A stretch of DNA of 64,000 bases from Maribacter stanieri (GTDB lineage Bacteria; Bacteroidota; Bacteroidia; Flavobacteriales; Flavobacteriaceae), in NCBI RefSeq assembly GCF_900112245.1, contig NZ_FOYX01000001.1, positions 607,856 through 671,855 of the forward strand. Reading direction: 5' to 3'. This document shows positions 61,185 through 63,317 of this stretch, in pieces. A program made the position numbers and the translations under genes. Numbering within the stretch: the first letter of the stretch is position 1; the number at the start of each line of letters is the position of its first letter. A model generated the notes under the pieces. The model was not told where the DNA came from. It ran no database searches and was given only the letters and a program-made list of their open reading frames with translations.

Positions 61185-61300
61185 GTTATTTTTTTGTAGT
61201 GGTTTGCAAAAACATTCCTATTTGTTTAATTACACATAGCATCTTTGAATGTTAGTATAAAAAGAAGAGCCTTCACTTTTGTTAAGGCTTAACCAAATGT

Positions 61301-61361
61301 GAAGAATATCGAATTCGAACCTATGAACCGGTGACCTTCCCGAATGCTTTCGGGACGCTCT
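61301..61361 (-). pseudogene. tRNA-Ala-like fragment A
   Basis: On the minus strand the unit reads TAGAGCGTCCCGAAAGC..., palindrome TCCCGA-TCGGGA, GGTCACCGGTTC..., then a diverged T-arm with an 8-base insertion and the acceptor end ATTCTTCA. It resembles units B and C downstream of the same D-arm remnant. The TAG at its start is the stop codon of the GIY-YIG gene. A terminator-like hairpin (61269-61290) follows. Coordinates are good to one base. Confidence 0.75.
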
Positions 61362-61620
61362 ATTCTTTCTTAACTGTAGAAATTAAATACTCAATATATT
61401 TTCGACTTTTCTTCTTTTTAATTAAAAGCTCAAAAGCCATTGCCTCTGGTCGCGTTTCAAAATTGCGCTGCCATTTTAAAACCCAATCATTTGTCTTTTT
61501 AGTATACTTAGAGCCATTTCCTTTATTATGTCGTGAAACTCTCTCTTCAATATCTTCACAATGACCAACATAAAAATGATTTATAGAATTACTGTAAAGT
61601 ATATATGTTGAAAACGGCAT
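61360..61620 (-). CDS. GIY-YIG nuclease, small (element-associated)
   Basis: This 86-aa single-domain GIY-YIG protein has YILYSNSINHFYVGHCEDIEERVSRH as split motif (Tyr6-Ile-Leu, Tyr18-Val-Gly), catalytic Arg27, and Glu64 in EAMAFELLIKK. Single-domain GIY-YIG proteins of this length (UPF0213 type) are common in Bacteroidota. It lies between tRNA-like units; its stop codon falls in tRNA-derived sequence. It starts with ATG after an AAGG-rich site. Likely target: tRNA-like DNA nearby, an inference. Confidence 0.88.
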   Translation of the reverse strand: MPFSTYILYSNSINHFYVGHCEDIEERVSRHNKGNGSKYTKKTNDWVLKWQRNFETRPEAMAFELLIKKKKSRKYIEYLISTVKKE

Positions 61621-61644
61621 CCTTAAAAATAGTCAAATAAAAAA

Positions 61645-61664
61645 GGCTTCCAAAACCGAGAACC
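61645..61664 (-). terminator. Terminator after tRNA-like unit B
   Basis: On the minus strand GGTTC and GAAGCC form a stem with one bulge, followed by TTTTTT. Confidence 0.6.
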
Positions 61665-61672
61665 TTCATGTG

Positions 61673-61747
61673 TGGAGAATACCGGATTCGAACCGGTGAC
61701 CTTCCCGAATGCTTTCGGGACGCTCTAAACCAAATTATCACTCTCAG
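61673..61747 (-). ncRNA. tRNA-like unit B (anticodon arm replaced)
   Basis: On the minus strand the T-arm and acceptor 3' strand equal tRNA-Ala (ACCGGTTCGAATCCGGT, ATTCTCCA). The 5' side GAGAGT can pair with ATTCTC. The D-stem is lost. In place of the anticodon arm is a palindrome, TCCCGA-AAGCAT-TCGGGA. It may be a pseudo-tRNA or a structured RNA; expression is unknown. Confidence 0.7.
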
Positions 61748-61764
61748 ATCAAAACCAAAAAAAA

Positions 61765-61784
61765 AGCTCCCAAAAATGGGAGCT
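61765..61784 (-). terminator. Terminator after tRNA-like unit C
   Basis: On the minus strand AGCTCCCA pairs with TGGGAGCT, then TTTTTTTTT. It is nearly identical to the terminator of the real tRNA-Ala, as both lie within the 117-bp repeat. Confidence 0.9.
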
Positions 61785-61789
61785 CTAAG

Positions 61790-61864
61790 TGGAGAATACC
61801 GGATTCGAACCGGTGACCTTTCCCGAATGCTTTCGGGACGCTCTAAACCAAATTATCACCCTCA
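61790..61864 (-). ncRNA. tRNA-like unit C (anticodon arm replaced)
   Basis: Near-identical to unit B at 117 bp distance. Differences: one extra T before the palindrome; GAGGGT for GAGAGT on the acceptor 5' side (A-T becomes G-T, so pairing is kept); fewer A in the T-run. D-stem is lost, no usable anticodon loop. Confidence 0.7.
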
Positions 61865-61881
61865 AATCAAAACCAAAAAAA

Positions 61882-61901
61882 AGCTCCCAAAAATGGGAGC
61901 T
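61882..61901 (-). terminator. Terminator of tRNA-Ala
   Basis: On the minus strand AGCTCCCA pairs with TGGGAGCT over a TTTT loop and is followed by TTTTTTT, 5 bases after the tRNA 3' end. Confidence 0.93.
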
Positions 61902-61906
61902 CTAAG

Positions 61907-61980
61907 TGGAGAATACCGGATTCGAACCGGTGACCTCTTGCCTGCCAGGCAAGCGCTCTAGCCAACTGAGCTAATCCCCC
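61907..61980 (-). tRNA. tRNA-Ala(GGC)
   Basis: 74-nt cloverleaf on the minus strand. Acceptor GGGGGAT/ATTCTCC contains the alanine identity pair G3-T70. D-arm GCTC/GAGC, anticodon arm CTTGC-CTGGCAG-GCAAG with anticodon GGC, and T-arm ACCGG-TTCGAAT-CCGGT are complete. CCA is not encoded. A strong terminator follows. Confidence 0.97.
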
Positions 61981-62102
61981 AAAATATTTAATATAAAATA
62001 AGCGAAAAAACGATTTTCCGAATGTTCCGTTTTAAAGCTTGTAAATATAATTCATTTTTACAGAGATCCTACTCATCTCAAAAGTATCTTTTTCAGCTTA
62101 AT

Positions 62103-62152
62103 AGTTCAACCAACAGAGTCCATTTTAAAAAAGTCGGGCTGGCTAATACTCC
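62103..62152 (-). pseudogene. tRNA 5' half remnant with palindrome insert, D1
   Basis: On the minus strand: GGAGTATTAGC (acceptor and start of D-stem), then an insert containing AGCCCGACTTTTTT, then ACTCTGTTGGTTGA (D-loop region). Its TAG is the final stop of the broken GIY-YIG gene. Confidence 0.65.
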
Positions 62153-62391
62153 AAAATAATATTTGTCTTTCTCCATCTTCTTCCCGCAGCCGATTTTAAA
62201 TACTTTTCTCTTACTCTAGCCTCTTATTTATTATTGTACTCTTCCGTATGAACAATTCTCCAAGGTACATAAGGCTTTGTACTTTTTACTTTACTAGAAT
62301 TATGTATTACTAAACGATTCTCTAAATCGTCAGTCATACCAACATAGAACCTTTTAAAAATATCGCTGTAAAGAACATATATATAACTCAT
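62143..62391 (-). pseudogene. GIY-YIG nuclease broken by an in-frame stop
   Basis: Reads MSYIYVLYSDIFKRFYVGMT...TEEYNNK, then TAA (62224-62226), and continues in the same frame EARVREKYLKSAAGRRWRK, ending TAG at 62143. Without the stop it would be 81-82 aa, the normal family length; the C-terminal part carries the Glu61 of the active site, so the 55-aa remnant should be inactive. ATG at 62391 is chosen over 62451, which would read through tRNA-like sequence. Confidence 0.9.
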
Positions 62392-62404
62392 TATCTGAAA
62401 AATT

Positions 62405-62486
62405 GCGCTCCCTGCCCGAACATGCCTTTTTCGGCATGGGCGGGTAGCCAACTGAGCCCGCCTAAAAAGTCGGGCAGGCTAATCCC
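62405..62486 (-). pseudogene. tRNA 5' half remnant with two palindrome inserts, D2
   Basis: On the minus strand: GGGATTAGC, an insert with GCCCGACTTTTTAGGCGGGC hairpin, GCTCAGTTGGCTA, a second palindrome (CCCG..CATGCC-GGCATG..CGGG) and GAGCGC. Removing the inserts leaves GGGATTAGCTCAGTTGGCTA-GAGCGC, the same as the 5' part of tRNA-Ala. The broken GIY-YIG gene begins 13 bases later. Confidence 0.75.
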
Positions 62487-62519
62487 AAAAAATCTTTTAA
62501 CAAGCCATCAAAGTACTAC

Positions 62520-63317
62520 TTAATCTTTCTTTACACTTAATACCAATACTGGTACCGGGGCATAAAACTCAGATTTTGCGATGGTACTTTTCTCCCATAA
62601 TTTCTTGAAAAAACCACGTTTTCTTCTAAAAACACACAATAAATCGGGGTGTTTTGCTTGAAAATGCTCTAATACACCATGGTATGTAGTTGAATTATCA
62701 GTAAACGTTAATTGCGAACTGATATCCATTAAAGCAGTATTTATCTTTAGATCGTCATCTGAATATCCTGGTGTTTTCACCATCAATAAATTCACACTTG
62801 AATTATGCTTATTCTTAATTTCAATTAACGGATCTAAAATTCTTTTTCTTTTTAGAATACCAGATTTAAAAGCAACTAAAATGCTCTTAAATTCTTTATA
62901 AGACGTTCCTTTTGGCACTATCAATGTAGGAATGTTGGTTCTTTTTATAATGGCACCAGAGGTTTGCCCTAAGTAGTTCTCTTCTTTAATATCATTACTT
63001 CTAGGAGCCAAAATTATAAGGTCTATACCTATACCCTTATTAATCTCTTTTAGTCCGTCTTTTAGCTCACCGTTAAAGCTTGCTATTTTAATAGAAACAT
63101 TTTTGGTCTCTACTCTTCCAATAACTTCCTTTAATCGCTCTTTAGAATTTTCGGCAACTTTTTGTGTAACGTTTGTTAGTGTTCCTGTTTTTCCGGTTAC
63201 GTTGAAAACGTCCATTACATATATTGCTGCCCCAAAGGCTTCTGCAAAATCTACTGCATATTGTAAAGTTTCGTTAGCATTTGTAGAGGTCCCAATAGGA
63301 ACAAGAATATTCATCAT
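62520..63317 (-). CDS. Universal stress protein family
   Basis: This 265-aa protein has an N-terminal UspA domain (MNILVPIGTSTNANETLQYAVDFA; IDLIILAPRSND) and a second, diverged half (ILVAFKSGILKRKRILDPLIE; ending PVPVLVLSVKKD). The last signature reading of the first domain is GAIIKRTNIPTLIVPKG. Such tandem Usp proteins bind nucleotides and respond to stress. Divergent from the GNAT gene with a short gap. Confidence 0.9.
   Translation of the reverse strand: MMNILVPIGTSTNANETLQYAVDFAEAFGAAIYVMDVFNVTGKTGTLTNVTQKVAENSKERLKEVIGRVETKNVSIKIASFNGELKDGLKEINKGIGIDLIILAPRSNDIKEENYLGQTSGAIIKRTNIPTLIVPKGTSYKEFKSILVAFKSGILKRKRILDPLIEIKNKHNSSVNLLMVKTPGYSDDDLKINTALMDISSQLTFTDNSTTYHGVLEHFQAKHPDLLCVFRRKRGFFKKLWEKSTIAKSEFYAPVPVLVLSVKKD

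Follow-up and report, generated by a model that had tools for sequence, protein, structure and literature searches.

What is the nature of a locus in which one intact gene for alanine transfer RNA (tRNA-Ala) is flanked on both sides by partial copies of itself, by palindromes and by small GIY-YIG nuclease genes? The locus in question lies in a 64,000-nucleotide stretch of the Maribacter stanieri genome (NCBI RefSeq assembly GCF_900112245.1, contig NZ_FOYX01000001.1, positions 607,856 to 671,855 of the forward strand; hereafter "the window"). An earlier note on this DNA, made from the sequence alone, had regarded it as a candidate homing-type mobile element. Our data suggest that this is probably correct, and that the locus harbours a mobile element of about 300–400 base pairs (bp) that lives inside tRNA genes, with a GIY-YIG nuclease that would cut the tRNA gene. 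The note had proposed to look in relatives for enrichment of GIY-YIG genes at tRNA fragments, for consistent junctions between fragments and open reading frames (ORFs), and for empty sites. Strong same-strand linkage, largely fixed junctions and empty-looking orthologous sites were found and support the reading as a homing-type element, from which we infer the cutting and the copying.

The locus is made up of the following features, in which nucleotide (nt) numbers refer to the tRNA.

61906–61980, minus strand: intact tRNA-Ala(GGC), presumably functional (ARAGORN; Rfam RF00005, 67.8 bits)
61937–61953, minus strand: anticodon stem-loop of 17 nt, in whose place the 3′-side partial copies carry a palindrome (from the sequence)
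61875–61902, minus strand: terminator-like hairpin and T run 3′ of the intact tRNA, with a second copy at 61758–61785 (from the sequence)
61789–61845, minus strand: ORF-less 3′-side unit 1, with TAGAGCG (61839–61845), palindrome (61821–61838) and tRNA 3′ part, nt 45–75 (61789–61819)
61672–61727, minus strand: ORF-less 3′-side unit 2, with TAGAGCG (61721–61727), palindrome (61703–61720) and tRNA 3′ part, nt 45–75 (61672–61702)
61360–61620, minus strand: GIY-YIG nuclease gene 1, 86 amino acids, intact, with its stop codon TAG (61360–61362) within a tRNA-derived TAGAGCG
61299–61362, minus strand: remnant behind gene 1, a third and diverged copy, with TAGAGCG (61356–61362), palindrome (61338–61355) and diverged tRNA 3′ part (61299–61337)
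62405–62486, minus strand: 5′-side remnant directly upstream of gene 2, a tRNA 5′ part split by palindromes (62456–62479 and 62411–62444), with a similar stretch in locus L255
62143–62391, minus strand: GIY-YIG gene 2, a pseudogene, open over 62227–62391 and with an in-frame TAA at 62224–62226
62104–62152, minus strand: decayed tRNA 5′ fragment between gene 2 and the intact tRNA (from the sequence), with a similar stretch in L255

Downstream of the intact tRNA gene, on the same strand, lie the two tandem units, which are spaced by 117 bp and both carry TCCCGAAAGCATTCGGGA in place of the 17-nt anticodon stem-loop, followed by gene 1 and the diverged third unit. Upstream lie the doubly interrupted 5′ part, the broken gene 2 and the decayed 5′ fragment. 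The inventory of the earlier note, namely one intact tRNA-Ala(GGC), two tandem tRNA-like units with the anticodon arm replaced by a palindrome, a diverged third unit, two tRNA 5′ fragments with palindromes in the region of the D-arm and two same-strand GIY-YIG frames, was recovered in full, by ARAGORN for the intact tRNA, by Pfam (PF01541) for the two frames and in the sequence for the remainder. Its statement that both nuclease genes end with a TAG in tRNA-derived sequence holds for gene 1 and fails for gene 2, where the TAA comes first and the tRNA-embedded TAG (62143–62145) lies in the same frame beyond it. Related copies of gene 2 without this TAA are found at loci L136 and L148 (L numbers denote the loci compared here).

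In related loci the arrangement recurs in two forms. In both of them a nuclease gene of about 80–100 codons lies on the same strand as the tRNA gene, and one tRNA gene is intact. The common 3′-side form consists of the intact tRNA, a terminator, the GIY-YIG gene, a tRNA-like stretch, a palindrome and a tRNA 3′ part. The 5′-side form consists of a tRNA 5′ part, a palindrome, the GIY-YIG gene and the intact tRNA. With A for the 5′ part and B for the 3′ part of the tRNA gene, the layout as read from the sequence fits an insertion at A|B: the 3′-side form reads A.B-terminator-ORF-palindrome-B, as if a new B had been brought by the element, and the 5′-side form reads A-palindrome-ORF-A.B, as if a new A had been brought. 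Hence, and beyond what the earlier note had described, the replacement half of the gene seems to come in two mirror forms; also beyond it, ORF-less units stand alone in relatives. Judged by the layout, the missing part of the gene would be supplied and the native part left behind, as in a gene hybrid, and in the reading proposed here the intact tRNA-Ala gene of the window would have been rebuilt from host and element parts.

The left-over tRNA part, at the far side of the nuclease gene, mostly has one of a few end positions and is often flush with a palindrome, the usual junctions being the T-loop, both edges of the anticodon arm and the D-loop. Among 61 distinct 3′-side junctions with a flush palindrome (stem of at least 5), 42 keep the last 31–33 nt of the tRNA, which places them at or just past the 3′ edge of the anticodon arm (Val, Arg, Pro, Ala and Lys), 12 keep the last 17–20 nt, in the T-loop (Asp, Gly, Met and Ala), and 7 lie elsewhere. 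Fragments of the 5′-side form end at nt 27–30 in L029, L038, L079, L090 and L117 and at nt 21–22 in L026, L037, L105 and L111; other ends are found in L112 (nt 10), L020 (nt 14), L028 (nt 11) and L031 (nt 51). The distance from the tRNA end to the start codon in the 3′-side form has a median of 45 bp, and a terminator-like hairpin was detected in 79 of 100 cases, by a detector run without a shuffle control. In nine cases of the 5′-side form, the stop codon lies between 24 nt inside the tRNA and 100 nt before it, and a terminator-like hairpin was detected in one of them.

How general is the association with tRNA genes? Of 120 genomes of its family, 41 contain a match to the window protein at E≤1e-5, and in 12 of these 41 the listed matches include neighbours spaced by 300–410 bp, which indicates tandem arrays. 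A set of 29 loci was found by the window protein alone and is free of any choice of tRNA-linked seeds; 23 of them have an ARAGORN tRNA call, for many isotypes and with one unclear. A profile of 24 proteins (A1: the window protein and those of 23 of the 29 loci) included L014 and L019, which lack a tRNA call, and left out L033 (cut), L034, L035, L036 and L039 (without a tRNA call) as well as L010, a partial duplicate of the window. This profile has matches at E≤1e-8 in 248 of 395 Bacteroidota genomes, with the tRNA linkage checked for part of them. A further 29 loci yielded a tRNA call in 26, and a profile A2 was built from 12 tRNA-linked loci.

Two larger samples were then measured. Sample 1 (L070–L129) comprises 60 clusters from the top of the profile ranking, taken with flanks of up to 5 kb, about a dozen clusters having been passed over, most of them at contig ends and at least two (G483:C98 and G351:C78) without a reason. 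Sample 2 (L164–L243) comprises the best 80 of 368 relatives found by a narrower profile in one genome per species over 84,980 species; 79 of the 80 are labelled Bacteroidota, and one is labelled as an Actinomyces bin, in our view mislabelled. In 56 of the 60 loci of sample 1 and in 69 of the 80 loci of sample 2, a tRNA was called on the strand of the GIY-YIG gene or array and no more than 500 bp from it; three of the latter 69 are ARAGORN calls that lack a normal isotype. Over the same distance the opposite strand held 0 and 1 tRNAs, respectively, and control zones 1.5–2 kb away held 0 tRNAs in sample 1 (115 zones) and 2 in sample 2 (124 zones). All 15 exceptions (4 and 11) show same-strand tRNA-like matches within 500 bp, and several of them are truncated at the end of a contig. 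Tandem arrays are common, 46 of the 140 loci having two or more GIY-YIG frames or fragments.

No tRNA sequence was found in 7 of 28 loci tested (L001, L003, L009, L019, L034, L036 and L246). L019 is a member of the tRNA-Pro clade of nucleases, and its locus stops 13 bases short of the contig end; L034 sits on a long branch within the D-arm clade. L001, L003 and L009 are other small GIY-YIG genes of the genome to which the window belongs, for which tRNA sequence was looked for and not found. By eye, L001 (C9:1262963) and L003 (C9:1230478) adjoin repeats of the type CATTGCGAGC...GAAGCAATC, which may point to another pairing of repeat and nuclease. In L006 of this genome (C9:1356676–1359879), a broken GIY-YIG gene and tRNA-Asp-like T-arm fragments lie at about 1350–1780, with a similar terminator hairpin on both sides and no tRNA call in 3.2 kb; this is perhaps an abandoned site. 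In L068 (1810–3123), nine tRNA genes (4 Asp, 3 Gly, 2 Asp) adjoin a GIY-YIG gene of this family, an array that recalls the tRNA amplification associated with the phage nuclease SegB (see below). ARAGORN labels palindrome-bearing left-over copies as tRNA-SeC in L015 and as tRNA-Stop in L018, and such copies are a source of false annotation.

Does the tRNA-Ala site occur without the insert? The neighbouring gene at 62520–63317, which we take to be UspA-like, has a relative in all 36 searched genomes of the genus. Of the 30 loci that include 1.5 kb of flank, 28 have a tRNA-Ala gene next to it and the other two are short pieces. Comparison of the 21 longer loci (the window and 20 of 35 relatives) shows an intact tRNA-Ala gene in every one. 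Eight of them appear empty, with the tRNA alone (L252, L258, L265 and L267–L271), where a locus counts as empty if BLAST gives a single match and GIY-YIG matches are absent, a criterion that old remnants may escape; five of the eight were also read by eye, i.e. all except L269, L270 and L271. ORF-less units only are present in six (L256, L257 and L259–L262). A GIY-YIG unit lies on the 5′ side in three (L253, L255 and L263) and on the 3′ side in three (L254, with additional ORF-less 5′-side units, L264, and L266, which is degraded); the window alone carries GIY-YIG units on both sides. The BLAST fragments, from which the interrupted fragments of L253 and L255 are absent, end at nt 27 (nt 22 in L263) or start at nt 45, with the exception of the diverged copy of the window (nt 48–75).

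In L256 and L262, the flank from the neighbouring gene leads into a decayed tRNA 5′ fragment, then a palindrome with a spacer, then the intact tRNA, whereas a similar flank leads straight into the intact tRNA in empty-looking relatives. Such an order would result from a split of the old tRNA gene together with a new 5′ part brought by the insert. Presence within the genus is patchy and apparently element-free alleles occur at orthologous sites, as is expected of homing genes.

If the nucleases are site-specific, their phylogeny should follow the tRNA rather than the host. On a tree of 94 proteins (88 columns, poorly resolved, with 52 of 91 inner branches open), the isotype label requires 23 changes versus 57.9 in shuffles, none of 200 shuffles being as low, and the label of bacterial family requires 28 changes versus 43. 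Isotype was taken as that of the nearest same-strand tRNA and was set by hand for L015, L018, L028 and L075. Pro and Asn require 2 changes each, Val-linked proteins span 6 bacterial families and Asp-linked proteins 7, and for Arg, Ser and Met there is little or no clustering. The enzyme tracks the tRNA more than the host, as expected for a site-specific invader; descent within lineages plays a part in the pattern, too.

The palindromes are a frequent companion of the junctions. The pattern TCCCGAN{0,20}TCGGGA occurs 3 times in the window versus none in 100 shuffles, and TCCCGAN{0,8}TCGGGA occurs at 4 places in the 4.46-Mb genome, 3 of them at this locus, versus 1 for a backward control pattern. 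A flush palindrome with a stem of at least 6 is found in 33 of 61 and 37 of 50 units versus 0.7 and 1.0 expected from dinucleotide shuffles, a count in which a few of the fragments are whole tRNA copies. CCCG stands at positions 2–5 in 43 of 62 palindromes and in 9 of 12 isotypes, TCCCGA..TCGGGA being the commonest form. In other forms (TTCCGA..TCGGAA, CCCCGA..TCGGGG, TGGCGC..GCGCCA and TCCGTC..GACGGA) both arms change together; since the sequences were collected by a palindrome search, this is not an independent test of covariation. Palindrome type is weakly tied to nuclease clade, with 16 changes versus 18.8 in free shuffles (0 of 200 as low) and 18.5 in shuffles within isotype (2 of 200 as low), six of the 62 palindromes having been assigned by hand.

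As to the enzyme, the product of gene 1 matches Pfam PF01541 above the cut-off (E 5.7e-15), which places it in the GIY-YIG superfamily, and the Pfam scan of the protein returned this domain alone. Y5, Y16, G18, R26, H30 and E63 are invariant across 24 aligned rows; we take these Tyr, Tyr, Gly, Arg, His and Glu residues to be the catalytic residues of the GIY-YIG domain. An AlphaFold2 model from 25 rows covers 85 residues with two C-terminal helices, at a mean predicted local distance difference test score (pLDDT) of 88. The nearest solved structures by sequence are the UPF0213 proteins 1zg2 and 1ywl, then SLX1 and then, weakly, I-TevI; a fold search returns the same neighbours, with E<0.001 for 1zg2 alone. 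The ratio of nonsynonymous to synonymous substitution rates (dN/dS) was computed for 24 disjoint pairs whose divergence was usable, among them tandem copies from a single locus; its median is 0.13 and its maximum 0.35, which indicates that the protein is kept working by purifying selection.

Taken together, these data suggest the following probable mechanism, homing being the most economical one given the layout. The nuclease would cut the tRNA gene at the junction, and the break would be repaired from element-bearing DNA, whereby the element is copied in. The matching tRNA part would arrive with the element, so that tRNA function is kept and the cell survives; in the discarded part, the palindrome would stand where the cut site was. 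A second cut in the rebuilt gene, followed by out-of-register repair, could give rise to tandem arrays, and ORF-less units may be deletion derivatives, some of them possibly moved in trans by a nuclease. The rebuilt tRNA gene might be spared by weak expression, by poor cutting of the own allele, or by tolerated recutting that makes arrays. Inefficient cutting of the own allele is described for free-standing GIY-YIG enzymes in the discussion of one source (PMC13096335).

Several observations weigh against homing into tRNA genes as proposed here. The carried and left-over tRNA parts are too alike to reveal a foreign origin, 3′ fragments being fully identical to the intact gene in several loci, e.g. 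L017 and L030. The junction is destroyed in the left-over part, yet the rebuilt tRNA is native in most of the loci printed, with the anticodon arm of the tRNA-Ala genes equal to that of empty relatives (slightly different in L136). The target is therefore not destroyed in the carrier, and the avoidance of self-cutting needs another explanation. Known homing does not account for the conserved palindrome, and a flush stem of 6 is absent in about one third of the units. At 85 amino acids, the protein barely exceeds its catalytic domain. On the tree, the family label is clustered as well, Ala, Arg, Asp and Val require 4, 5, 6 and 8 changes, and the Gly proteins are one side of a branch and all from one bacterial family. 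Finally, the profile seeds lean to tRNA-linked loci.

It is possible, if doubtful, that these are autonomous elements of about 350 bp, each made isotype-specific by its 85-amino-acid GIY-YIG enzyme, in which the palindrome takes the place of a portion of the cloverleaf and is no scar, serving instead as an insertion mark and as an active end that the nuclease binds or cuts; by returning a portion of the tRNA gene they would keep the host alive, and ORF-less units would be mobilised in trans. If true, this would be a movement of DNA distinct from classical homing, transposition and site-specific integration. We regard it as unlikely that the palindrome itself is the mobile end, with a nuclease that acts on its hairpin or cruciform and attacks tRNA arms as hairpins. 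Enzymes of the RAYT type (tyrosine transposases associated with REP, i.e. repetitive extragenic palindromic, sequences) do act on REP hairpins, in tRNA-Ala a hairpin arm is swapped for a hairpin, the palindrome is common to isotypes and insertion points, and SLX1, which is a structure-specific nuclease, ranks with the closest solved structures. However, the T-loop junctions are not hairpin-for-hairpin exchanges, and the tie between palindrome type and nuclease clade is weak. With 4 places in the genome the palindrome is not dispersed, and Pfam finds the GIY-YIG domain alone, and on these two grounds a REP-like dispersed palindrome with a RAYT enzyme was rejected.

A selected and vertically inherited host function, such as control of tRNA copy number or defence against tRNA-integrating elements, would agree with purifying selection even between tandem copies, with the wide distribution of profile matches in Bacteroidota and with the clustering of families on the tree. 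It appears improbable in view of the patchy presence in one genus (8 of 21 loci without the element), the decayed copies (gene 2 of the window and L266) and the many different tRNAs used. It is similarly hard to believe that there is no mobility at all and that tRNA genes are duplicated in tandem by slippage, one copy decaying and the nuclease gene hitchhiking. The frequency of tandem arrays and the existence of ORF-less tandem units would suit this, but isotype-linked nuclease clades span several bacterial families, junctions recur with flush palindromes, empty-looking and filled sites are orthologous and involve both sides of the tRNA, and the nuclease is under purifying selection. Integrative elements with tyrosine recombinases use the same general trick of rebuilding a tRNA gene and the same preferred regions, the anticodon loop and the T-loop being favoured among tRNA attachment sites. 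That the loci are scars of such elements, with the GIY-YIG gene as cargo, is nevertheless highly improbable and was rejected on layout: the units of the window and of the genus loci printed measure about 85–600 bp and contain no integrase-sized frame, the anticodon stem-loop as the would-be crossover site is gone from the left-over part, and mirror 5′-side forms occur.

Two other candidates were rejected as well. A group I intron does not fit an uninterrupted tRNA, and no Rfam intron family was found in L011–L030 or in 61190–62520 of the window. A phage or plasmid origin was dismissed on weak matches of the window protein only, to two phage records and one plasmid record. The IMG/VR database contributed 8 loci, none of which has an intact tRNA call within 500 bp; the close relatives L244 and L245 lie at contig ends with tRNA fragments and may represent host DNA that borders prophages inserted at tRNA genes.

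Why would such an element matter? Genes for tRNA are essential and single copies are unbreakable, and an element that carries part of the gene could still enter. To our knowledge, this strategy of replacing part of a gene is otherwise known only from fungal mitochondria, and homing into tRNA genes, if true, would show it in bacterial chromosomes. At a few hundred bases, these would be among the smallest autonomous mobile elements. They would account for numerous anonymous GIY-YIG genes and tRNA gene parts that lie next to tRNA genes of Bacteroidota. Their small nucleases, naturally grouped by the tRNA that they target, would form a large collection, which may help to understand how a bare GIY-YIG domain reads DNA. 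The matter also bears on tRNA annotation, given the miscalled copies in L015 and L018.

Among known systems, SegB of phages T4 and T6, a free-standing homing endonuclease of the GIY-YIG type, is the direct precedent for the proposed cutting, and its gene lies beside tRNA genes. SITE-seq has served to map SegB sites over whole genomes. According to the available part of the source, SegB cuts inside tRNA genes, at a motif RAWTSGAAC present in 23 of 83 sites, and is required for the tandem amplification of tRNA genes together with segB (PMC13096335); T4 free-standing endonucleases, including SegB, are also covered by a general source, likewise available in part (PMC2988022). By our own reading of the sequence, the reverse complement of RAWTSGAAC would correspond to T-loop sequence. 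SegB differs in that it belongs to a phage and its gene lies between tRNA genes, and in the available text there is no mention of a supplied tRNA part, of a split tRNA with a palindrome or of families in bacterial chromosomes that go with an isotype.

The mobile ORFs of fungal mitochondria are the direct precedent for the layout. As far as the accessible part of the source goes, they form gene hybrids in Allomyces atp6 and in Glomus atp6, atp9 (with a GIY-YIG ORF), cox2 and nad3, where the endonuclease ORF supplies a replacement 3′ end of the gene and the native end stays downstream (PMC3630166). They differ from the elements described here in that they reside in mitochondrial protein genes and are mostly of the LAGLIDADG type, and the same text mentions the 3′ form alone and neither palindromes nor tRNA nor ORF-less tandem units (PMC3630166).

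By sequence and fold, the closest structures are the single-domain GIY-YIG proteins of the UPF0213/YazA type (1zg2 and 1ywl) and SLX1, and we know of no link of these proteins to tRNA genes. REP/REPIN sequences with RAYT enzymes share the pairing of a small palindrome with a small nuclease gene and the existence of gene-less units; they differ in that the palindrome is not dispersed here, the enzyme is of another type and the target is a tRNA gene. Among the literature matches listed, with preprints and most subscription papers outside the scope, none described bacterial GIY-YIG elements that combine partial tRNA genes with palindromes. Overall, the present elements would belong with the mobile endonuclease ORFs that replace part of a host gene, here in a class of host gene and a domain of life that are new, and the palindrome could make them more than that.

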